Positions 1,480 to 20,596 of a stretch of DNA of 44,667 bases are shown piece after piece (within the stretch, counting starts at the first letter, position 1; every line of letters starts with the position of its first letter). The notes under the pieces are model-generated. The model worked only from the letters and a program-made list of their open reading frames with translations. It did no database searches and had not been told where the DNA came from. The DNA is taken from positions 1 to 44,667 of the forward strand of contig CACYWW010000025.1 in NCBI GenBank assembly GCA_902778145.1. The letters run 5' to 3'. A program made the translations under genes and the position numbers. This stretch comes from an uncultured Ruminococcus sp. GTDB lineage: Bacteria > Bacillota > Clostridia > Oscillospirales > CAG-272.

Positions 1480-2543
1480 TCAGCCGTGTACCAGAAGCCG
1501 TCGTCCGGCAGCTTGCCGCCGACGGATTTGGGATTGGCTTCGAAGAGCACGTTGAGCATGCTGCTCATCGCGGTCTTCATCCCGTCGCCTGTCACGAGAA
1601 CGATATTGCAGTTCGGGAGTGCCGCCTTCGCGATCGCCGCCTTCGGGACTATGCCCGCCGCCTCGATCAGCGCCGCCGCCTCTTCGACGTTCGACGTCAC
1701 GAAATCGACCGACGCCTTGTATTCTTCAAGGAAGCTCTTCAGCGCCTGCGGATGCTCTTCCGCGAATTTCGCGCTGACTATGATGCATCCCATGACCATA
1801 TCCGTGCCGGAAACGGCCTTCCATTCCTTGTTGAGGTCGAGCGCTATATGCGCGTTCTTGTTGTTCAGGAGCACTGCCGTCACGTTGGGCTCGGGGAGCA
1901 TGCCCAGAGTCACGGTGCCGGCGGTCATCTGAGTCGCAAGCTCCGCGTGCTCGGCGAGAAATTCTATCGTAACGTCCTTATCGGGATCTATGCCGTTCTT
2001 CGAGAGTATATAACGGAGCGTGTATTCGGGGTTGGCGCCCTGACCCGTCGCGTATATCTTCTTTCCCTTGAGGTCGGCGACGGATTTTACCGTGTCGCCG
2101 GATTCGAGCATATAGAGCACGCCGAGCGTGTTGACGCCGGCCGCCTTTATCGCGCCCTCCGTCTTATTGTAGAGGACCGCGGCAAGGTTCACGGGAACGG
2201 CGGCGATATCGAAATCGCCCTTTATAACCTGAGCGGACACCTGGTCGGGAGCGGACGCTACCGTGAAGGTGTAGTTCTGCCCGGTCTTGTTTTCCTTGGA
2301 GTCGCTGATCAGCTTGGACATTCCCATGCCGGTCGGACCCATAAGGGTGATGACTCTTATCTCGGACGGTTTGTCCTCGGGCTTTTCGGTGTCGGCGCCG
2401 GTCGTCGACGGCGTCTCAGCCGAAGTGTCGTCAAGTGTCGTCTGAGTGCCGGTCGCCTCGGGCTTACCGTTTCCGCACGACGCGAGCGCGAACGCCGAAA
2501 CGAGCATAAGCGCCGCAAGGATCATTGCTGTTATCTTTTTCAT
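1476..2543 (-). CDS. ABC transporter substrate-binding lipoprotein, TauA/SsuA (NMT1-like) type
   Basis: This 355-residue lipoprotein should capture the substrate outside the membrane and deliver it to the permease. A type II signal peptide runs to the lipobox LASC at 20-23, with Cys23 as the lipidated residue; a Thr/Glu-rich linker follows to about residue 60. The folded part has features of the NMT1/SsuA family, including GPTGMGM near 70 and a VADLKGKKI segment. The start codon shares a base with the regulator stop (TAATG), and its Shine-Dalgarno site GGAGG lies inside the end of the regulator gene. The ligand is unknown: no sulfonate, nitrate or thiamine metabolism gene is next to it. Confidence 0.9.
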   Translation of the reverse strand: MKKITAMILAALMLVSAFALASCGNGKPEATGTQTTLDDTSAETPSTTGADTEKPEDKPSEIRVITLMGPTGMGMSKLISDSKENKTGQNYTFTVASAPDQVSAQVIKGDFDIAAVPVNLAAVLYNKTEGAIKAAGVNTLGVLYMLESGDTVKSVADLKGKKIYATGQGANPEYTLRYILSKNGIDPDKDVTIEFLAEHAELATQMTAGTVTLGMLPEPNVTAVLLNNKNAHIALDLNKEWKAVSGTDMVMGCIIVSAKFAEEHPQALKSFLEEYKASVDFVTSNVEEAAALIEAAGIVPKAAIAKAALPNCNIVLVTGDGMKTAMSSMLNVLFEANPKSVGGKLPDDGFWYTAE

Positions 2544-6516: not shown

Positions 6517-6550
6517 CGCCGGCCGTCCCTCGGGACAACCGGCGCTTTTT
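6517..6550 (+). terminator. Intrinsic terminator after the coaW cluster
   Basis: The stem CGCCGG/CCGGCG with an inner GTCCC/GGGAC pairing spans 6517-6544 and is followed by TTTTT. Its T-tract coincides with the last codons of the convergent nspC gene. Confidence 0.85.
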
Positions 6551-7739
6551 ATTGTTTTTTTCCGAGTCTGTACTTGAAATCGCCGTATCCGAAGCGGGTC
6601 AGCCTTTCGACCGACAGGTCGGCTCCGAGCTTATATATATCCGGCAGCGGCATTCCGTTGAACGTGTTGTTCTTGCAGGTCGAATATATCGCCATATCGC
6701 CGAAGAGCAGTGCGTCGCCGACAGCCGGCAGGGCTTTCAGACGGTAGTCTCCGATGATATCGCCGGAAAGACACGTGGGCCCGCCGAGACGGATCGGCAC
6801 GCCGTCCTCACAGGCGCCGTAAAGCGGCGGAGTATACGGCATTTCTATCACGTCCGGCATATGAGCCGCGGCGCTTGCGTCGACTATGACGTTCGTCACG
6901 CCGCCGTTCTCCGTGACGTCGAGCACGCGCGTGAGCAGATATCCCGCGTTTAGCGCGACAGCCTCGCCGGGCTCGATATATATCCCGACGCCGTATTCGT
7001 CCATCGCGCGGCGGACGCAGCGTATGAGCCTTTCAATGTCATATCCCGGGCGGGTTATGTGATGACCTCCGCCGATGTTCAGCCATTTTATCCGTTCGTC
7101 TGACAGAACGTCGCCGAATTTCTCAAAGACAGCCGAAAGCGTAGTCTCGAGCGCATCCGAATCCTGCTCGCAGAGCGTGTGGAAATGGATCCCGTCGAGC
7201 AGAGAGAAGAGACCGTCCGTCATCTTCAGATCGAACTGAGCGCGCGTCACGCCGAGGCGGCTGCCGGGAGCGCACGGATCGTATATCTCGTGCCCCTCCT
7301 GCGTCGAGCATTCGGGATTTATCCTCAGCCCCACGTCAAGTCCCGCTTCCTTCGCCTTCCTGCCGAATCTTTCGAGCTGACCGACGGAGTTGAACACGAC
7401 GTGGTCCGCGTATACGCAGATCTCGTCAAATTCGCTTTCACGGTACGCGGCGCAGAACACGTGCACCTCACCCTTCATCTCCTCGCGCCCGAGACGAGCC
7501 TCGTACAGTCCGGACGCCTCCGTACCGGAGAGATACGGTCCGATCGAGCCGTAGAGATCGTAGTTCGAGAACGCCTTCTGCGCGAGAAGGATCTTCGCGC
7601 CGGTCGCGTCGGATACGCTTTTCAGTATTTCGCAGTTCCGTATGAGCCGCCCCTCGTCTATGATATAGCACGGCGAGGGCAGATCGCGGAAAAGCTCCGC
7701 GGGATCGCCCGGCAGGGCAGAGAAAACATGACCGTACAT
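6549..7739 (-). CDS. nspC: Carboxynorspermidine/carboxyspermidine decarboxylase
   Basis: This 396-residue PLP enzyme removes the carboxyl group from carboxyspermidine to give spermidine (or carboxynorspermidine to norspermidine). It has the fold-type III architecture of alanine racemase-like decarboxylases. Lys55 in LLAQKAFS is the expected PLP-binding lysine, and GGGHH at 223-227 is the conserved phosphate-binding glycine-rich motif of NspC. Its start overlaps the stop of the CASDH gene (TGATG) and has only a poor Shine-Dalgarno site, so translation is probably coupled. It is the last gene of the polyamine operon. Confidence 0.92.
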   Translation of the reverse strand: MYGHVFSALPGDPAELFRDLPSPCYIIDEGRLIRNCEILKSVSDATGAKILLAQKAFSNYDLYGSIGPYLSGTEASGLYEARLGREEMKGEVHVFCAAYRESEFDEICVYADHVVFNSVGQLERFGRKAKEAGLDVGLRINPECSTQEGHEIYDPCAPGSRLGVTRAQFDLKMTDGLFSLLDGIHFHTLCEQDSDALETTLSAVFEKFGDVLSDERIKWLNIGGGHHITRPGYDIERLIRCVRRAMDEYGVGIYIEPGEAVALNAGYLLTRVLDVTENGGVTNVIVDASAAAHMPDVIEMPYTPPLYGACEDGVPIRLGGPTCLSGDIIGDYRLKALPAVGDALLFGDMAIYSTCKNNTFNGMPLPDIYKLGADLSVERLTRFGYGDFKYRLGKKQ

Positions 7740-8998
7740 CAGTCTACGAGTACCGGATCGCGGTTCTCGCGCCTCGGCAGCCCGTATTTGTCGAGCGCGT
7801 CAAGGAAAGGATCGGGATCGAATTCTTCGACCGTATGAACGCCGGGAGTCGTCCATTTTCCGGTGAGCATCATAAGGGCGCCGCACATCGCCGGGACGCC
7901 CGTGGTGTAGCTTATCGCCTGGCTCTGCACCTCGCGGTAGCATTCCTGATGGTCGCAGACGTTGTATATATAATACTTCTTTTCTTTTCCGTCTTTTTTG
8001 CCGGTGAAGATGCAGCCGATGTTCGTTTTGCCGTGCGTGCGCGGGCCGAGGCTCGCGGGATCGGGCAGAAGCGCCTTGAGGAACTTTATCGGCACTATCT
8101 CACGTCCCTCGAACATGACGGGCTCCGTTGAGAGCATACCGACGTCCTCAAGACATTTCATATGCGTCAGATAGCTCTGACCGAACGTCATGAAAAAGCG
8201 GATGCGTTTGATCTCCGGCAGGTTTGCGGCGATGGATTCAATCTCCTCGTGGTGGAGAAGATACATATCCTTCATTCCCACACCGTCGAAATCGTATTCG
8301 CGCTTTATGCTCATCGCGGGGATCTCGACCCATTTGCCGTTCTCAATATAGCTGCCCGGCGCGGATACCTCTCTCAGGTTGACCTCCGGGTTGAAGTTCG
8401 TGGCGAAGGCGTAACCGTGATCTCCTCCGTTGCAGTCGAGTATATCGACAGTGTCGATCTCGTCGAATTCGTGTTTTTTCGCGTACGCGACGTAAGCCTG
8501 CGTCACACCGGGGTCAAATCCGCAGCCGAGCAGAGCGGTGAGGCCCGCCGCCTCGAACTTCTCCCTGTAAGCCCACTGCCAGCTGTAATCGAAATAGGCG
8601 GAAAATCCCTTTTCGCGGCAGCGCTTCTCGTATATTTCACGCCACGCGGGATCCGTCGTATCCTCCGGCTCGTAGTTCGCCGTGTCCATATAATTGACGC
8701 CGCATTCAAGGCACGCGTCCATTATCGTCAGATCCTGATAGGGGAGCGCTATGTTCATGACGAGGTCGGGCTTGTACCCGTTTATCAGCGCGACGAGCTG
8801 ATCCTTGTCGTCCGCGTTGACCTGCGCCGTCGTTATGACGGTCTTCGTCTTGCCTTCAAGCGACTTTGCGAGCGCGTCGCACTTGGATTTCGTTCTGCTC
8901 GCGATGCACAGTTCGGTGAAAACGTCGTCAAGCTGTGCGCATTTTCTGATCGCCACGGACGCAACGCCGCCGCAGCCGATAACAAGGACTCTCTTCAT
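7739..8998 (-). CDS. Carboxynorspermidine/carboxyspermidine dehydrogenase (synthase), saccharopine-dehydrogenase-like
   Basis: This 419-residue NAD(P)H enzyme condenses aspartate semialdehyde with a diamine (putrescine here, by context) and reduces the imine to carboxyspermidine. The N-terminal Rossmann motif GCGGVA is at 8-13, and the saccharopine dehydrogenase family pattern continues through the protein. It forms a functional pair with the downstream nspC gene. GGAGG precedes the ATG. In published Clostridia and Bacteroidetes genomes this pair is the S-adenosylmethionine-independent route to spermidine. Confidence 0.9.
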   Translation of the reverse strand: MKRVLVIGCGGVASVAIRKCAQLDDVFTELCIASRTKSKCDALAKSLEGKTKTVITTAQVNADDKDQLVALINGYKPDLVMNIALPYQDLTIMDACLECGVNYMDTANYEPEDTTDPAWREIYEKRCREKGFSAYFDYSWQWAYREKFEAAGLTALLGCGFDPGVTQAYVAYAKKHEFDEIDTVDILDCNGGDHGYAFATNFNPEVNLREVSAPGSYIENGKWVEIPAMSIKREYDFDGVGMKDMYLLHHEEIESIAANLPEIKRIRFFMTFGQSYLTHMKCLEDVGMLSTEPVMFEGREIVPIKFLKALLPDPASLGPRTHGKTNIGCIFTGKKDGKEKKYYIYNVCDHQECYREVQSQAISYTTGVPAMCGALMMLTGKWTTPGVHTVEEFDPDPFLDALDKYGLPRRENRDPVLVD

Positions 8999-9013: not shown

Positions 9014-9868
9014 TTATTTGCAAAGTGACAGTAAAAGCTCTCTTACGGTCTTACAGGCGACCGCGGTGGACGCGCCGGATGTGTCGAGCATCGGCGCGAG
9101 CTCGTTGACGTCCGCGGCGACGACCTTCAGACGGCTGACTCCTATTATCGCGGACAAAAGCTCCGTGAAGGAAACGCCGCCCGCCTCGGGCGTGCCGGTC
9201 CCCGGGAATACCGAGGGATCGAGGCAGTCGAGATCTATCGTGAAGTACACGGGCGCGTTTTCGCGCGCGAGGCGCGCGACGGTCTCCGTCAGCCCGTCAA
9301 AGCTGAATTTGTGCATTTCGGTGTGCGCGTCGGCAAATCTGAATTCCGGGCGGTCTCCGCTCCTTATGCAGAACTGGTGTATCCTCCCGTCGCCGACAAG
9401 CTCATGGCAGCGGCGTATCACCGCGGCGTGACTCAGCTTTGCGCCGAGATATTCGTCGCGCAGATCCGCGTGCGCGTCGAAGTGGATGATATGCAGCTCC
9501 GGAAAGCGCTTTACCGCCGCGCGTACCGCGCCGAGCGTGACAAGATGCTCGCCCCCGAGCATGACCGGAAGCTTGCCGTCGTCGAGTATTTCACCCGCAC
9601 GGTCTTCGATATCGGAAAGCGCCGCCTCGGCGGAGCCGAAGCAAAGCTCGAGATCCCCGCTGTCGAAGATCGCGTGATCCGTCAGATCCCTGTCCTGATA
9701 CGGACTGTACGTTTCAAGCCCGAAGCTCTCGTGGCGTATCGCGGAAGAGCCGAAGCGCGCGCCGGGGCGGAAGCTCGTCGTCGAATCGAACGGGGCGCCG
9801 AACAGCACTATACGTGCGTCGTCATACGGCGCGTCGCAGCCTATGAAGGTTTCCACATTGCTTTTCAT
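9014..9868 (-). CDS. speB: Agmatinase
   Basis: This 284-residue ureohydrolase converts agmatine to putrescine and urea using two manganese ions. Metal ligands are visible in GGEH (His108), DAHAD (131-135) and the later IDLDCLDP motif near 210. Family length is normal. It overlaps the upstream speE by four bases (ATGA). Context supports agmatinase over arginase, because arginine decarboxylase is in the same operon. Confidence 0.93.
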   Translation of the reverse strand: MKSNVETFIGCDAPYDDARIVLFGAPFDSTTSFRPGARFGSSAIRHESFGLETYSPYQDRDLTDHAIFDSGDLELCFGSAEAALSDIEDRAGEILDDGKLPVMLGGEHLVTLGAVRAAVKRFPELHIIHFDAHADLRDEYLGAKLSHAAVIRRCHELVGDGRIHQFCIRSGDRPEFRFADAHTEMHKFSFDGLTETVARLARENAPVYFTIDLDCLDPSVFPGTGTPEAGGVSFTELLSAIIGVSRLKVVAADVNELAPMLDTSGASTAVACKTVRELLLSLCK

Positions 9869-10719
9869 TTTTCCACCTCCAGAAGCATCCGCTCAAGGAA
9901 TGCCGGCAGATAGAACGCGCCCTTGTGGAGCTTCGTCGTATAATAATTCGTGTGAAGGTTGAGGGAAAGCCACGCTTCGACGTCGAGATCGTCTATCGGG
10001 TGGTATTTCTTGCTCGCAAAACCGAAAAGCCAGTAGCCCGCGGCGTACGTCGGTATGTGGGCCTGATAAACACGGCTTATCGGGAACGTGCTCGCTATCC
10101 TCATGTGACTGCGCTGCATCGCCTCCGCGTCGTGCTTGTAGAACGGACTGCCCTGCTGATTGACCATTATGCCGTCTTCGCGCAGAGCGTTGTAGCATAT
10201 GCCGTAAAACTCGCGTGTGAAATATCCCTCGCTCGGGCCGAACGGATCCGTCGAGTCGACGATTATCAGGTCGTATTTTGCCGTGCATCTGCGGATGAAA
10301 CGGAGCGCGTTGTCGTAGTATATGTGTACGCGGCTGTCGTCGAGACGGCAGGCGTTTTCCGGCAGGTACGCGCGGCAAGCCTTGACGACCTCGGGGTCCA
10401 TCTCGACCAGATCTATCTGACGGACGCGGTCGTATCTGCAAAGCTCTCTCACGACGCCGCCGTCACCCGCGCCTATGACGAGGATGTCGCACGCGCTTTT
10501 GTGGACGGACATCGGGACGTGGGTTATCATCTCGTCGTATATGAATTCGTCGCGCTCGGTGAGCATCACGTTGCCGTCTAACGTCAGAACTCTGCCGAAC
10601 TCGGGCGTGTCGAAAATATCTATCTGCTGAAAGTCGCTTTTCTGTGAGTACAGATGCCTGTCGACGCGTATGCTGTGCTGAACGTCCGGCGTGTGGAATT
10701 CGCTGAACCAAAGCTCCAC
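9865..10719 (-). CDS. speE: Spermidine synthase (polyamine aminopropyltransferase)
   Basis: This 284-residue enzyme transfers an aminopropyl group from decarboxylated S-adenosylmethionine to putrescine. The nucleotide-binding motif GAGDGG is at 83-88, and the catalytic region VDSTDP at 154-159 carries the two conserved aspartates. The start is GTG at 10719 with AGGAGG eight to ten bases before it. It lies 12 bases after speA. No S-adenosylmethionine decarboxylase (speD) is present in the window, so its co-substrate must be made from elsewhere. Confidence 0.93.
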   Translation of the reverse strand: MELWFSEFHTPDVQHSIRVDRHLYSQKSDFQQIDIFDTPEFGRVLTLDGNVMLTERDEFIYDEMITHVPMSVHKSACDILVIGAGDGGVVRELCRYDRVRQIDLVEMDPEVVKACRAYLPENACRLDDSRVHIYYDNALRFIRRCTAKYDLIIVDSTDPFGPSEGYFTREFYGICYNALREDGIMVNQQGSPFYKHDAEAMQRSHMRIASTFPISRVYQAHIPTYAAGYWLFGFASKKYHPIDDLDVEAWLSLNLHTNYYTTKLHKGAFYLPAFLERMLLEVEK

Positions 10720-10731
10720 CTTTTTACCTCC

Positions 10732-12192
10732 TTATGCGAGTACGTTGATGTTTTCGATGTTCGGATCCTCGGGACCGGTCATCGAGCAGCCCTTGATCTT
10801 CGCGTATTCTATATAGTCGAGGATCTCGTCGGTTATGCGCTCGCCCGGAGCGAGTATCGGTATTCCGGGGGGATAACACATGACGAATTCACTGCAGACG
10901 AGGCCCGCGCTCTCGCGCAGGGGAACGCTGCGCTTGTTCGCGTAGAACGCCTCCTGCGGGCTGGTGATGACCTCGGGGTCGATATATTCCTGACTGAGAA
11001 GACCGTCCGGGTCCTTCTGATATCTGCGCCTGATCTCGGCGAGCGCGGAAACGAGCCTTTCAAGCTCCTGCGGCCTGTCGCCGATCGAAAGATACGCTAA
11101 GATGTTGCCTATATCTCCGAATTCTATCTGTATATCGTATTCGTCGCGCAGGATGTCGTACACCTCTATCCCGGCGAGACCTATGTCGCGCGTGTGGATA
11201 CTGAGCTTCGTCGGGTCGAAGTCGAAGATCGAATCGCCGTTCACGAGCTCCTTGCCGTACGCGTAGTATCCGCCTATCGCGTTTATCTCCTCGCGCGCGT
11301 AATCCGCCATATTTATGACCTTCGCAAAAATCTCACGTCCGCGCAGGGCGAGGTTGCGCCGGCTTATGTCGAGGCTCGACATTAAGAGATAGCTGCCGGA
11401 GGTTGTCTGCGTAAGGTTTATGATCTGCCTTACGTGACCGGCGCTCATGTTCGGACCGATCAGAAGAAAGCTCGACTGCGTGAGGCTTCCGCCGCTCTTG
11501 TGCATGGAGACCGCCGCCATGTCGGCGCCCGCGTCCATCGCCGTCACGGGCATCCCCGCGCCGAAATAGAAATGCGTGCCGTGCGCCTCGTCGGAGAGGC
11601 AATACATGCCGGCGTCGTGCGCCATTTTCACTATTGCCTTCATATCGGAGCAGACGCCGTAATACGTCGGATTGTTGACGAGGACCGCCACGGCGTCCGG
11701 GTTTTTGTCTATCGCCTTCTGCACCTGCTCACGCTTCATGCCGAGCGAGATGCCGAGCTTGCAGTCGACCTCGGGATTGACGTACACGGGCACCGCGCCG
11801 CAGAGGACGAGCGCGTTTATCACGCTCCTGTGGACGTTCCTCGGGAGGATTATCTTGTCTCCGCGCTTGCAGGTCGAGAGGACCATCGTCTGGACGGAGC
11901 TCGTCGTTCCGCCCACCATAAGAAACGCGTGCGCGGCACCGAAAGCGTCCGCGGCGAGCTCCTCCGCCTCCTGTATCACCGATACGGGGTGGCAGAGATT
12001 GTCAAGCGGCTTCATGCTGTTGACGTCGATGCTGACGCACCGCTCGCCCAAAAACTCCGTAAGCTCGGGATTGCCGCGCCCTCGTTTGTGACCCGGCACG
12101 TCGAACGGAACGACGCGCATCTGTCTGAATCTCTGCAGCGCCTCGTAGATCGGCGCCCTCGTCTGATCGAACCGGAATACGTTGTTTGTCAT
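10732..12192 (-). CDS. speA: Arginine decarboxylase, Orn/Lys/Arg decarboxylase family (SpeA, aspartate-aminotransferase fold)
   Basis: This 486-residue PLP enzyme should convert arginine to agmatine, the first step of the operon pathway. DEAHG at 201-205 holds the PLP-pyridine aspartate and histidine, and Lys232 in SMHKSGGS is the Schiff-base lysine. Length matches Bacillus subtilis SpeA (about 490), not the larger inducible decarboxylases. Ornithine or lysine activity cannot be excluded from sequence, but the adjacent agmatinase favours arginine. The Shine-Dalgarno GAGG lies at 12198-12201, directly after an intrinsic terminator in the leader, so expression is probably controlled by attenuation. 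Confidence 0.93.
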   Translation of the reverse strand: MTNNVFRFDQTRAPIYEALQRFRQMRVVPFDVPGHKRGRGNPELTEFLGERCVSIDVNSMKPLDNLCHPVSVIQEAEELAADAFGAAHAFLMVGGTTSSVQTMVLSTCKRGDKIILPRNVHRSVINALVLCGAVPVYVNPEVDCKLGISLGMKREQVQKAIDKNPDAVAVLVNNPTYYGVCSDMKAIVKMAHDAGMYCLSDEAHGTHFYFGAGMPVTAMDAGADMAAVSMHKSGGSLTQSSFLLIGPNMSAGHVRQIINLTQTTSGSYLLMSSLDISRRNLALRGREIFAKVINMADYAREEINAIGGYYAYGKELVNGDSIFDFDPTKLSIHTRDIGLAGIEVYDILRDEYDIQIEFGDIGNILAYLSIGDRPQELERLVSALAEIRRRYQKDPDGLLSQEYIDPEVITSPQEAFYANKRSVPLRESAGLVCSEFVMCYPPGIPILAPGERITDEILDYIEYAKIKGCSMTGPEDPNIENINVLA

Positions 12193-12202
12193 AAAAACCT
12201 CG

Positions 12203-12235
12203 AAAAAAACGCAAGTCGGTCTGCCCCGGCTTGCG
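12203..12235 (-). terminator. Attenuator terminator before speA
   Basis: On the minus strand the stem CGCAAG/CTTGCG, extended inward by CGG/CCG, occupies 12210-12235. It is followed by seven T residues (12209-12203). It ends two bases before the speA Shine-Dalgarno, so it would stop transcription before the operon unless an antiterminator forms. Confidence 0.85.
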
Positions 12236-12404
12236 CTGATCCCGATATAAAACGGTATGAAAATACCGCTAACCGGAAAAAATTTGGTACACAGAGTCTA
12301 TATAGCAACAAAACTTTTACTACTCTTTATTGACCGTTTCACAAGTTGGCGCGACGCGCCGGGTTATAAAGTAACCGACTTATAAAATCTGAGACTCAGC
12401 TCAG

Positions 12405-12500
12405 TCAATAACGGCTGTGTGGATCCGGCTGTCCGTATGGCCTGACTCTCCGTGAGTGATCCGTAATAAAGTTGCGGAAAGACCCTATGTTCAGATTCAT
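12405..12500 (-). CDS. Possible leader peptide in the speA leader
   Basis: A 31-codon reading frame opens with ATG at 12500, within a few bases of the predicted transcription start, and stops at 12405. Five of its 31 codons encode arginine, three of them in a short RRVR run. There is no room for a Shine-Dalgarno site, so translation would have to be leaderless. A frame of this length could occur by chance; the arginine content in front of an arginine decarboxylase is what makes it notable. Confidence 0.2.
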   Translation of the reverse strand: MNLNIGSFRNFITDHSRRVRPYGQPDPHSRY

Positions 12501-12510
12501 TCCGACATAT

Positions 12511-12539
12511 AATATATACAGTTTCCCTTGTTTTGTCAA
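12511..12539 (-). promoter_or_regulatory. Promoter of the speA operon
   Basis: On the minus strand TTGACA (12534-12539) and TATATT (12511-12516) are separated by 17 bases. Transcription should start near 12504. Confidence 0.85.
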
Positions 12540-12663: not shown

Positions 12664-12740
12664 GTCTCCGTAGCTCAGCAGGATAGAGCGTCCGCCTCCT
12701 AAGCGGAAGGTCAGCGGTTCGAATCCGCTCGGGGACGCCA
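12664..12740 (+). tRNA. tRNA-Arg (anticodon CCU)
   Basis: All arms fold: acceptor GTCTCCG with CGGGGAC (one T-G pair), D-stem GCTC/GAGC, anticodon stem TCCGC/GCGGA with loop CTCCTAA, and T-arm AGCGG/CCGCT around TTCGAAT. The anticodon CCT reads AGG (arginine). The CCA end is encoded. It has its own promoter and terminator, so it is a single-gene unit. Confidence 0.97.
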
Positions 12741-12741
12741 G

Positions 12742-12769
12742 AAAAAACCTCGCGCGAGCGAGGTTTTTT
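12742..12769 (+). terminator. Terminator of tRNA-Arg
   Basis: The stem CCTCGC/GCGAGG with a GCGA tetraloop is flanked by AAAAAA before and TTTTTT after. Confidence 0.9.
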
Positions 12770-12770
12770 C

Positions 12771-12907
12771 AACTAAATCCGTCCTTCGGACGGGATAAAT
12801 CCACGCAAGCGTGGATGAAATCGCTGCGCGATGAAATCCGCACTGACGTGCGGGATACAGAGGACGGATTTGATTTCATCGTGAGCGAAGCGAACGATTT
12901 CATCCGA
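12771..12907 (+). repeat. Multi-hairpin repeat, copy A
   Basis: A run of short stems is separated by a constant GATGAAATC-like spacer: CCGTCC/GGACGG, ATCCAC/GTGGAT (799-816), ATCGC/GCGAT (820-832) and CCGCAC/GTGCGG with loop TGAC (838-853). The set is enclosed by the outer inverted repeat AAATCCGTCC (12775-12784) and GGACGGATTT (12862-12871). GATTTCATC, the reverse complement of the spacer, then occurs twice up to 12904. No gene is seen in 12771-13513. Confidence 0.85.
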
Positions 12908-12996
12908 GATACGAAATTACAGTGAAAAACCCACAAAAAGCAATAAATAACGCGTGGAAAGGCTAAAAAACCTGCTCAAGGGGTCAATTTCGTATC
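12908..12996. repeat. 11-bp inverted repeat pair bounding 67 bases
   Basis: GATACGAAATT at 12908-12918 is mirrored exactly by AATTTCGTATC at 12986-12996. The enclosed 67 bases have no reading frame of note. The segment lies between hairpin-repeat copies A and B. Confidence 0.6.
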
Positions 12997-13016
12997 TAAA
13001 TGGTACGTGATTCACA

Positions 13017-13275
13017 GAAAAAACCTCGCGTAAGCGTGCTTTTTTCAACTAAATCCGTCCTTCGGACGGGTGAAATCCACTTTGTGGATGAAATCGCTGC
13101 GCGATGAAATCCGCACTTACGTGCGGGATAAAGAGGACGGATTTGATTTCATCGTGAGCGCCGGGGTTCCCCGAAGCGAGCTTGCGAGCGTTGGGGGTTC
13201 GCGGATGCGAACGATTTCATCCGGGATCTGCCCGGATTTCACCGCGCCGCAGGCGCGATTTCACTTTTTGTGATT
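13017..13275 (+). repeat. Multi-hairpin repeat, copy B, with a decayed terminator copy at its head
   Basis: Bases 13018-13046 are a degenerate copy of the tRNA terminator. The copy A series then repeats from 13047 with loop changes (TTCG, TTTG, TGC, TTAC) and the same outer AAATCCGTCC/GGACGGATTT pair. Compared with copy A it carries an extra GC-rich block (about 13160-13208). It continues with GCGCC/GGCGC and TCAC/GTGA stems, again spaced by GATTTC. The following stretch to 13373 shows only a repeated TTCGAGCGTTT (13273 and 13361). Confidence 0.8.
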
Positions 13276-13373
13276 TCGAGCGTTTAAGATAATAATGTGC
13301 ATAACAGCATTTTGAATTTGGCAGAAGGCACTTTTTCAATTGTTTTTTCCGTTTTGCATATTCGAGCGTTTTC

Positions 13374-13483
13374 AACTAAATCCGTCCTTACGGACGGGTG
13401 AAATCCACCTTCGGTGGATGAAATCACTTCGTGATGAAATCCGCACTGACGTGCGGGATACAGAGGACGGATTTGATTTCATC
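13374..13483 (+). repeat. Multi-hairpin repeat, copy C
   Basis: The third copy keeps the order of stems with loops TTAC, TTCG, TTC and TGAC, and ends in GATTTCATCAT. It ends about 30 bases before the ASCH gene, and the gene's reading frame stays open back through it. That extension is not coding, because a strong ribosome binding site lies after the repeat. Confidence 0.8.
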
Positions 13484-13513
13484 ATTATCGTAATCAGAGG
13501 GGAGGACCGTAAT

Positions 13514-18543: not shown

Positions 18544-18599
18544 AACAGGACCGGGACCCTGAAGTGAGAAAGGAGGAGACGGAGGGGCGACGGAAAGAT

Positions 18600-18728
18600 C
18601 GGCGCCGGGACCGCAATACCTCAGGCGGTCGACGAGGAGAGGGTCATCGAAAGATTCGGCGGATACCCTCCGTGCCGTGACAGCCCGTAAGACAACGGTC
18701 AAAAACCGCGGGAGACCGCGAAACAAAG
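18600..18728 (+). ncRNA. glmS ribozyme
   Basis: This self-cleaving RNA senses glucosamine-6-phosphate and lowers glmS expression when the product is abundant. The core starts with GCGCC at 18602-18606, just after the expected cleavage position. GACCGC/GCGGTC forms P2, followed by the conserved GACGAGGA and GAGGGT/ACCCTC stem, and the hallmark ATCGAAAGATTCGGCGG (about 18639-18662) whose GGCG pairs back with the 5' CGCC. A CCGT/ACGG stem and CCGCG pairs complete the 3' domain before AACAAAG. It sits 45 bases before the glmS start, as expected. Confidence 0.93.
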
Positions 18729-18772
18729 CTGTTGTCATGTCACGTAAAATTGAATAAAGAGAGGTATAAAAC

Positions 18773-20596
18773 ATGTGTGGTATCGTAGGATACAGCGGTA
18801 AAAGAGAGGCGGTCGGAGTTATACTCAGGGGACTGTCGAAGCTCGAATACCGGGGATACGATTCGGCGGGCGTCGCCGTGAGCGACGGCGAAAGCCTCGG
18901 CGTTTACAAATCGAAGGGCAGGCTCGGGGAGCTTGAGGCTGTCCTTGAAAGGGAGGGGGCGCCTGCCGGGACCGTCGGCATCGGTCACACGAGATGGGCG
19001 ACGCACGGCGCACCGTCCGACGTCAACTCCCATCCGCACACCTTCGGCAGGGTCACTCTCGTCCACAACGGGATAATAGAGAATTACCTGAGTCTGAAGC
19101 GCCGCGCGGAGGAGGACGGAGCCGTTTTCCGGTCGGAGACAGATACGGAGGTCGCGGCGTACGTCATCGACCGCTGCTACGGCGGAGACCCGTTCCGCGC
19201 CTTCGCGGACGCGCTGCCGCTGCTTGCCGGCTCTTACGCCTTCGCCGTGATATTCGACGACAGGAAGGATGAGATCTACGCGGTCAGACGCGACAGTCCG
19301 CTGATCGCCGCGAAGGGGGACGGAGAATGCTTCGTCGCGTCGGACATACCGGCGCTGCTCTCTTACACGCGGACTTACTGCCTGCCGGAGCCCGGCGAGA
19401 TCGTGAGGCTGCGTCGGGGAGAGCTGACGCTGTTTTCGGCTGACGGAAAAGACGTGACCGGACAAAAACGCTTCGTCACCGCGGAGCTTACCGAGGAGGC
19501 GGCGGAAAAGGGCGGATATCCGCATTTCATGCTGAAGGAGATATACGAACAGCCGGATACGCTGAGACGGCTCATATCCGCGCACACGGAAAACGGCGCC
19601 GGCGGGATCTTCGCGGAGGAGCTGAAGGATACGTCCGATATTAAGCGTATCTTCATCGTCGGCTGCGGCTCCGCCATGCACGCCGGGCTGCTCGGAAAAC
19701 ACATTATAGAGCGTCTGTGCCGGATCCCCGTCGAGGTCTCCGTATCGTCGGAGTTCAGATATAACGATCCGATGGTGGGGCCGGGAGACACGGTCTTCGT
19801 GATCTCTCAGTCCGGTGAAACGGCTGACACGCTCGCCGCGCTCAGACTCGCTGAAAGCAAGGGCGCGAAGGTATGCGGAATCGTCAACGTCGCGGGAAGC
19901 TCCATAGCGCGCGAGGCCGACTGGGTGATATATACACGCTGCGGCCCGGAGATAGCCGTCGCCACTACAAAGGCGTTTACCGCCCAGGTGCTCGTGATGT
20001 ATCTGCTCGCGGCGCGTCTCGCCCATGACCGGAAAACCGTGAGCGGGGAGTTTTTGTCGGAGTATCTTACCGATATGAGAAAGCTCCCCGAGGCGGTCTC
20101 ACGTACACTGTCCGACAGCATGTCCGCGCTTTGCCGCAAATACGCGGAGTACAACAGGGACTACGGCGATTATTATATAATCGGCAGAGGTCAGGACTGC
20201 GCGGCGGGCTGCGAGGGCGCCATGAAGATAAAGGAAGTGTCCTATATGCACTGCGAAGCGTACGCCGCGGGCGAGCTGAAACACGGCACGATCTCGCTCA
20301 TAACGGACGGGGTGCCGTGCATGGCGATCGTCACCGATCCCAAAACGGCTGACAAGACCGTCAGCAACATCAAGGAGGTACGTGCGAGAGGCGGACACGT
20401 GCTGCTTGTAACGCAGTGCGTCGCGGAAAGCCCGGACGTCTGCGACTCGTATCTGCCGCTGCCGTCGCTCTGCTTTCATCTTATGCCGATAGTCGCGATC
20501 GTCCCGATACAGCTCTACGCGTATCATACGGCGGTCATTCGCGGCTGCGACGTAGACCGCCCGCGAAATCTCGCGAAGAGCGTAACGGTCGAATAA
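18773..20596 (+). CDS. glmS: Glutamine-fructose-6-phosphate aminotransferase (isomerizing)
   Basis: This 607-residue enzyme makes glucosamine-6-phosphate from fructose-6-phosphate and glutamine, the entry to peptidoglycan amino-sugar synthesis. After removal of Met1, Cys2 of MCGIVGY is the glutaminase nucleophile. The class II amidotransferase domain spans about 1-220, and two SIS isomerase domains follow (about 285-420 and 455-600), with the ISQSGETADT sugar-phosphate site and the C-terminal NLAKSVTVE. Length is normal. It is controlled by the upstream ribozyme. Confidence 0.97.
   Translation: MCGIVGYSGKREAVGVILRGLSKLEYRGYDSAGVAVSDGESLGVYKSKGRLGELEAVLEREGAPAGTVGIGHTRWATHGAPSDVNSHPHTFGRVTLVHNGIIENYLSLKRRAEEDGAVFRSETDTEVAAYVIDRCYGGDPFRAFADALPLLAGSYAFAVIFDDRKDEIYAVRRDSPLIAAKGDGECFVASDIPALLSYTRTYCLPEPGEIVRLRRGELTLFSADGKDVTGQKRFVTAELTEEAAEKGGYPHFMLKEIYEQPDTLRRLISAHTENGAGGIFAEELKDTSDIKRIFIVGCGSAMHAGLLGKHIIERLCRIPVEVSVSSEFRYNDPMVGPGDTVFVISQSGETADTLAALRLAESKGAKVCGIVNVAGSSIAREADWVIYTRCGPEIAVATTKAFTAQVLVMYLLAARLAHDRKTVSGEFLSEYLTDMRKLPEAVSRTLSDSMSALCRKYAEYNRDYGDYYIIGRGQDCAAGCEGAMKIKEVSYMHCEAYAAGELKHGTISLITDGVPCMAIVTDPKTADKTVSNIKEVRARGGHVLLVTQCVAESPDVCDSYLPLPSLCFHLMPIVAIVPIQLYAYHTAVIRGCDVDRPRNLAKSVTVE

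Follow-up and report, generated by a model that had tools for sequence, protein, structure and literature searches.

The question raised by this locus is what a long, structured RNA standing between a promoter and the first gene of a polyamine operon does there, and to which class of RNA it belongs. The analysis was carried out on a window of 44,667 nucleotides (the whole stretch of DNA presented above), in which promoter, leader, terminator and speA all lie on the minus strand.

Layout of the leader and its operon

The promoter (12511-12539) consists of TTGACA (12539-12534), a 17-nt spacer and TATATT (12516-12511), agrees with the consensus at 11 of 12 positions, and would set the transcription start near 12504. 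Between it and the ATG (12192-12190) of a speA-like decarboxylase runs a leader of ~310 nt. Folding of 12505-12193 gave -103 kcal/mol, compared with a mean of -79.6 kcal/mol for 100 dinucleotide shuffles (z = -4.67), none of which was as stable as the leader. An intrinsic terminator (12203-12235), recognized from sequence and fold, comprises a stem at 12235-12210 (CGCAAG...CTTGCG) and a T7 tract at 12209-12203, and is separated by a single C (12202) from GAGG (12198-12201), the speA Shine-Dalgarno by sequence. Promoter, leader and terminator were thus all found as described in the original prediction, and its placing of the end of the T-tract two bases before the Shine-Dalgarno is true counting AGG, the distance being one base if GAGG is counted. 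A pattern scan for terminators did not pick up the 12235-12210 stem, probably because the scan permits loops of 3-8 nt only; the stem is visible in the predicted fold. The position of the terminator, directly before GAGG and ATG, suits control of the operon. A further hairpin, CGGTATTTTCATACCG followed by TTTTATAT (12253-12268, minus strand), was noted in the sequence between the conserved RNA described below and the terminator, and may be a second pause or termination site.

The operon, also on the minus strand, begins with an Orn/Lys/Arg decarboxylase gene (10732-12192; Pfam PF01276, E 1e-70), which is called speA-like because it is named by its neighbours, no NCBIfam model reaching its cut-off. 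It is followed by speE, for polyamine aminopropyltransferase (9865-10719; NF002010 and TIGR00417 over cut-off), speB, for agmatinase (9014-9868; TIGR01230 over cut-off), a lys1-like gene for carboxy(nor)spermidine synthase/dehydrogenase (CASDH, 7739-8998; NF043000, E 1.9e-122, with PF16653 and PF03435) and an nspC-like gene for carboxy(nor)spermidine decarboxylase (6549-7739; TIGR01047 nspC, with Pfam PF00278). The last two match their NCBIfam families at E <1e-117 with scores under the curated cut-offs (CASDH 409 bits, cut-off 800; nspC-like 393.7 bits, just under the cut-off of 409).

The conserved RNA and its covariation

Of all Rfam families, only RF02440 (SpF59_sRNA, ldcC RNA) was over threshold in the leader, at 38.0 bits against a gathering threshold of 37.2 (a margin of 0.8), the match (12411-12462, minus strand) covering the 5' domain of the conserved RNA. 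A search of the leader up to E = 5 returned three families (RF02440, Atu_C4 and Ref55); T-box, SAM, lysine, guanidine and other riboswitch families gave no leader match up to that limit, for which the T-box, SAM, lysine and guanidine classes were rejected, and the T-box covariance model had no match over threshold in the window. The expectation that the leader would match no known class stood as regards riboswitch and T-box families and gave way at one point, the marginal over-threshold match to RF02440, an unassigned 54-nt sRNA family corresponding to the 5' domain.

The match to RF02440 rests on the 18-mer block GGCCATACGGACAGCCGG. An exact scan of the genome collection for this block gave at least 118 stretches, and the conserved RNA was shown by 116/118 among the matches listed; set side by side, the stretches share the same long sequence, which runs on for ~200 nt. 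L064, L068 and the viral match L001, which have neither the flanking pattern nor a polyamine gene, were rejected as chance matches. Omitting these and L002 (a duplicate of the window), a core set of 117 leaders including the window was assembled from the matches listed; it overlaps the set later obtained by model. From the core set, a sequence-only alignment (A1) of 73 non-redundant leaders was made, 93 having met the length and end rules and 75 the redundancy filter, with L075 and L085 dropped by hand. A covariance model (R1, 207 positions) was built from A1. The window is itself a row of A1, and its R1 match (12291-12469, minus strand; cmsearch 144.9 bits, E 6.8e-33), the sole one in its genome up to E = 1, is therefore partly by construction; this stretch is the conserved structured leader RNA and candidate aptamer.

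Matches to R1 were found in at least 18 of 299 Bacillota genomes, at least 25 of 398 in a larger sample largely repeating those, at least 9 of 149 in a further sample of mostly repeated Bacillota genomes, and at least 68 of 245 genomes of the window's order, as well as in at least 6 of 198 Spirochaetota and at least 10 of 100 Synergistota genomes. These counts include own/centre genomes and are lower bounds, 6-24 candidates having been scored per genome under strict filters; the phylum names Bacillota, Spirochaetota and Synergistota were inferred from the centre loci L071, L049 and L079.

The conserved RNA is usually 165-245 nt long, with up to 11 helices, of which the window has 10, lacking P4 (a hairpin that most homologues have ahead of P5). 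P1 (12421-12462) pairs GGATC 12462-12458 with GATCC 12425-12421 and encloses P2 and P3; read at A1 columns 11-69, the window has GGAUC/GAUCC for GGACC/GGUCC, a compensatory substitution of U-A for the C-G pair of the other 72 A1 rows. P2 (12445-12457; ACTC 12457-12454 with GAGT 12448-12445) covaries strongly in homologues. The core AGGCCATACGGACAGCCG (12426-12443) holds P3 (GGC 12442-12440 with GCC 12429-12427), which was preferred to the CGG/CCG core hairpin proposed by RNAalifold on account of a G-C to A-U change at P3 in two divergent rows (of the 89 in A2, an alignment of chosen sources including divergent members that was fitted to the model, so that its counts lean towards the model). 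A tentative pseudoknot would join the loop CGG (12435-12433) to CCG (12414-12412), in columns that are almost invariant. The long-range helix P5 (12327-12411) joins TTATTGACT (12411-12403) to GGTCAATAA (12335-12327), with A-U to G-C in 9 A2 rows. Then come the P6 hairpin (CTGAG..CTCAG, 12389-12404), P7 (12341-12383; ATAAGT 12383-12378 with ACTTGT 12346-12341; G-C to C-G in 2 A2 rows), whose 3' strand doubles as the proposed antiterminator strand, the P8 hairpin GGTTACTTTATAACC (12362-12376) and the variable P9 hairpin GGCGCGTCGCGCC (12348-12360). The highly conserved P10 (12294-12325; GAGT 12325-12322 with ACTC 12297-12294; U-A to C-G in 12 A2 rows) encloses P11 (AGTAA/TTGCT). All lie on the minus strand.

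On A1, RNAalifold run unsupervised gave two-sided changes in 18 of 44 pairs. With the structure drawn by hand, 95.1% of cells were paired and 205 double-change cells were counted, against 65 ± 8 after shuffling (0/500 shuffles reached the observed count), and sliding the partners by 1-3 columns lowered pairing to 27-46%. A phylogeny-aware test, home-made from a FastTree tree and a substitution-reshuffling null and cruder than R-scape, returned three pairs on A1, all within the structure (E 0.0125, 0.075 and 0.125). It was then applied to a structure-free alignment of 121 sequences, from which rows >245 nt and 10 divergent or partial ones had been omitted; of the 20,301 column pairs, the best three (E 0.0125, 0.2 and 0.225) all fell within the structure and no other reached E 0.5. 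Under this null, the first pair was clearly significant and the next two were marginal. Counted as branch events, 107 coordinated pair-keeping changes were seen, compared with 16-57 for partners slid 2-5 positions, and 413 pair-breaking changes, compared with 548-791 for slid partners. The coordinated changes fell mostly in P2 (46), P4 (19), P9 (11) and P6 (10); P3 and the proposed pseudoknot had 0 and are weakly tested because they hardly vary. Most helices of the conserved RNA covary, and the check proposed at the outset, conservation of the hairpins upstream of related genes, found them kept. A chance origin of the leader structure was rejected on the fold z-score, the counts of two-sided changes and the branch-level changes.

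Downstream genes and the candidate ligand

Genes were assigned by tblastn with four window proteins (plus nspC in the operon survey) and two homologues (speD of L031 and potA of L005) first named by eye. NCBIfam cut-offs were reached by speD (L031, L049), potA (L005, L035, L065, L103) and nspC (L071). In the core set, among the matches listed, a polyamine gene lay ≤700 nt from the core in 111 of 111 readable leaders, 6 contigs being too short, and the first polyamine gene of the 117 leaders was speD in 39, speA in 35, lys1/CASDH in 21 and potA in 16. Among the loci found by model search (71, with the window's copy and loci fetched twice omitted, and with loci for 32 of the 68 order-level matches), one of speD, speA, CASDH or potA lay ≤260 nt from the RNA end in 71/71, the weakest matches included. 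The original prediction, which had dealt with a speA leader, understated the reach of the RNA, which is found also before speD, potA and the carboxyspermidine dehydrogenase gene. What was found is a conserved, structured and covarying RNA upstream of a functionally coherent gene set, as looked for in a riboswitch, and that it is a real, widespread, cis-acting RNA of polyamine operons is in our judgement almost certain.

Operon composition was surveyed, up to 5 kb downstream, in the 44 leaders followed by 4.9 kb of sequence or more, where lys1-nspC was found in 13, speA-speE-speB-lys1-nspC in 10, speD-speA-speE-speB-lys1 in 8, speA-speE-speB-lys1 in 5, potA in 3 and speD-speA-speE-speB in 3, plus two single variants. 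The 13 leaders with lys1-nspC had no speA, speD or speE match within 5 kb. The lys1-nspC pair carries out the putrescine-to-spermidine step only, via carboxyspermidine, in a route that uses no decarboxylated SAM, whereas speD and speE make spermidine via decarboxylated SAM; potABCD imports spermidine. The three genes that follow potA in L005 match the PotB, PotC and PotD models best or near best, below cut-offs. Spermidine is the shared product or cargo of these operons, and was therefore taken as the ligand guess.

That the leader RNA senses a small molecule directly is very likely. A metabolite riboswitch reading a different ligand (putrescine, agmatine, arginine, decarboxylated SAM or a longer polyamine) would agree with the many operons led by speA or speD, in which an early intermediate could be read, and with the window's own first gene, which makes agmatine or putrescine; we hold it to be unlikely, given the 13/44 leaders with lys1-nspC only, on a route without decarboxylated SAM, and the potABCD-like operon of L005, which matches spermidine/putrescine import models, spermidine being the one shared product. 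The original suggestion of an RNA sensing polyamine, arginine or agmatine, which would be new or rare, was accordingly narrowed, in that the RNA is not rare and its gene set points to spermidine and not to arginine or agmatine.

Shortened members were also observed. L134 (1501-1716) and L135 (1501-1681) have no P1-P4, and inspection by eye showed a promoter-like sequence immediately before their 3' core; speD is downstream, with a terminator-like hairpin between. L132, L136, L138, L209 and L210 likewise lack the canonical 5' domain, and no Rfam match was found in L134, L135, L136 or L138. The 3' part is common to all short forms and thus may hold the sensing core, which the short sequences suggest to be the 3' domain (P7/P10/P11); L134 and L135 could represent a minimal sensor.

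Such 3'-only forms would also suit a protein-binding core, and large conserved leaders can be protein sites, so that the leader might be read by a polyamine-sensing RNA-binding or antiterminator protein. The RNA, however, spans Bacillota, Spirochaetota and Synergistota, and its long invariant joints between helices are, as general knowledge, usual in metabolite aptamers; a protein reader is considered improbable.

Among the 16 leaders before potA, 13 (L005, L018, L029, L036, L037, L040, L057, L059, L067, L070, L076, L084 and L106) showed by eye an extra hairpin between UGCCG and P4, which was lacking in L035, L065 and L103 and was present in two speD leaders (L100 and L118); the extra-hairpin leaders before potA are a possible sub-type. 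L065, one of the 111 readable leaders, has a gene for a P-II-like nitrogen regulator (1557-1952, minus strand; 71.6 bits, under the cut-off of its family) interposed between the RNA and potA, which hints that polyamine uptake and nitrogen control may be connected.

Termination and comparison with known RNAs

A terminator of -14 kcal/mol or lower was found before the gene in 94 of the 98 leaders whose 3' end was clear, among the matches listed, compared with 18 of 294 dinucleotide shuffles. A second rule gave a terminator in 105 of 111 leaders among the matches listed, a few of the picks not being the main terminator by eye, and none in the other 6. Conditional termination, originally predicted for the polyamine operon of the window from the position of its terminator, is supported by the same RNA and a terminator before polyamine genes in ~100 leaders, with covarying helices.

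A terminator preceding the gene would also be expected under ribosome-mediated attenuation via a leader peptide, and a Shine-Dalgarno-preceded ORF of at least 8 codons is present in 25 of 109 leaders, among the matches listed. Against this, no position carries such an ORF start in more than 2 of the 109 leaders examined, and the frame is shifted by hairpin indels; with no conserved stalling peptide seen among these leaders, a leader peptide was rejected as extremely improbable.

Complementarity exists between the terminator 5' arm (CGCAAG, CACAGG and similar, in many cases preceded by GAUC) and the 3' strands of P7 and P5, which read CUUGUG..GGUC. In the window, the proposed antiterminator partner (12230-12241, minus strand) comprises GATC 12241-12238, which would pair with the P5 GGTC, and CGCAAG 12235-12230, which would pair with the P7 CTTGTG, the duplex amounting to -10.3 kcal/mol. 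Duplex energies were calculated for 102 of the 105 terminator-bearing leaders, among the matches listed, and averaged -9.60 kcal/mol with own partners, -9.03 ± 0.145 kcal/mol with partners swapped among the 102, which retains relatedness (0/2000 swaps reached -9.60), and -6.43 ± 0.21 kcal/mol with shuffled arms. The base beside the terminator arm was readable in 72/102, the rest being without one motif; G stood with C or U in 44 of 65 and A with U in 3 of 7, which is not clean. The antiterminator pairing is thus supported but not proven, since swapping keeps relatedness and the covariation check is not clean. For the window alone (277 nt, no pseudoknot), the predicted fold is ambiguous, at -76.6 kcal/mol for the terminator state, -67.8 for the antiterminator state and -83.8 unconstrained, and the minimum-energy fold does not form P1-P3 as in the consensus.

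On the proposed mechanism, abundant polyamine (most likely spermidine) would be bound by the RNA and hold it folded, P5 and P7 would stay paired, the terminator at 12235-12203 would form, and speA-speE-speB-CASDH-nspC would be left untranscribed. Under spermidine shortage, CUUGUG...GGUC (from P7 and P5, 3' side) would instead pair with GAUC..CGCAAG, including the terminator 5' arm, so that the terminator would be blocked and the operon read. If the antiterminator is right, holding P5 and P7 together lets the terminator form and makes this an OFF switch, a direction that would suit feedback on synthesis and uptake alike. We consider it likely that the leader is a transcription-terminating polyamine OFF riboswitch for spermidine or a close polyamine, serving polyamine homeostasis, with ligand binding, the identity of the ligand and the OFF direction being the inferred parts.

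A riboswitch for spermidine has been described as a rare four-stem variant of SAM-I (Salvail et al. 2023; in the accessible part of PMC10853860), and no other was found in the literature searched. Like the present RNA, that variant leads ldcC, speE and speB, works through a terminator and antiterminator, and is OFF with spermidine (same part of PMC10853860); the present leader differs in sequence, has more helices and matches no SAM family up to E = 5. RNA motifs near polyamine genes have likewise been reported by Brewer et al. 2021 (accessible part of PMC8632094) and are set apart by description, the potE motif, whose covariation is weak, being confined to environmental samples and Veillonella, and the odc1 motif being a uORF-linked pseudoknot. 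The ABC-leader, shown in Haemophilus and Pasteurella, is likewise an attenuator, before the potABCD spermidine/putrescine import operon, and is also set apart by description (Naville and Gautheret 2010; accessible part of PMC2965389). The accessible parts of PMC8632094, PMC10043782, PMC7266159 and PMC2965389 describe no element like the leader RNA; those of PMC6429828 and PMC11109978 contain no mention of polyamine genes that we found, and that of PMC6296669 none of SP_0916 or polyamine. No report of the leader RNA as a riboswitch was found in the literature searched, a search partly of top results whose scope excluded preprints and most subscription papers.

The Rfam 15 model of SpF59_sRNA has a 54-nt consensus equal to the P1-P2-P3 part of the leader RNA; it ends after UGCCGA, is filed as an sRNA without a ligand, and omits the highly conserved 3' domain, the leader RNA being ~4x longer. 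In the 398-genome sample, 18/18 RF02440 matches over cut-off coincided in contig and position with R1 leaders. In the 299-genome Bacillota sample, RF02440 matched 11 of 18 R1 genomes, with no match in G270 and the other 6 not among the matches; G236 had an RF02440 match below cut-off that was not an R1 match. The Lactococcus lactis control genome gave an RF02440 match. Because Rfam types the family as sRNA, and because a prematurely terminated leader would appear as a short RNA, a stand-alone trans-acting sRNA with an incidental position at speA was considered. SP0916 of S. pneumoniae is presumably a decarboxylase gene. F59 of S. pneumoniae lies between SP0915 and SP0916 on the SP0916 strand (accessible part of PMC3395615), which speaks for a cis leader. 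So do the length of the RNA, ~4x the Rfam model, and its place before polyamine genes that run in its own direction, seen in every case that could be read, and a cis leader is argued from position and terminator; the trans-acting sRNA is accordingly highly improbable.

With moderate confidence, we regard the leader as representing a riboswitch class of new structure and very large aptamer that responds to polyamine, probably spermidine, is found in three phyla and controls both synthesis routes as well as uptake; the SpF59 'sRNA' would be a fragment of it, and the 3' domain is the suggested sensing core. Further polyamine riboswitch classes are held to await discovery (section 13 in the accessible part of PMC10853860). 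If the reading is true, a class of ~200 nt before speA, speD, CASDH and potA makes wide polyamine-riboswitch use directly testable, shows by what means spermidine levels are set in many bacteria of gut and soil, explains as a cis switch a pneumococcal RNA filed as sRNA, and offers a large new RNA fold for structural work.

Other RNA features were noted in the window. A divergent tRNA-Arg gene (anticodon CCT; 12664-12740, plus strand) lies just upstream of the speA promoter, and the intergenic stretch 12739-13490 contains direct repeats (3 copies of 77 nt, 92-97% like the reference, and 2 of 66 nt) that overlap two Rfam Gut-1 RNA matches. A glmS ribozyme (18590-18746, plus strand; 78.6 bits) lies directly upstream of an ORF (18773-20596) that resembles glmS by eye.
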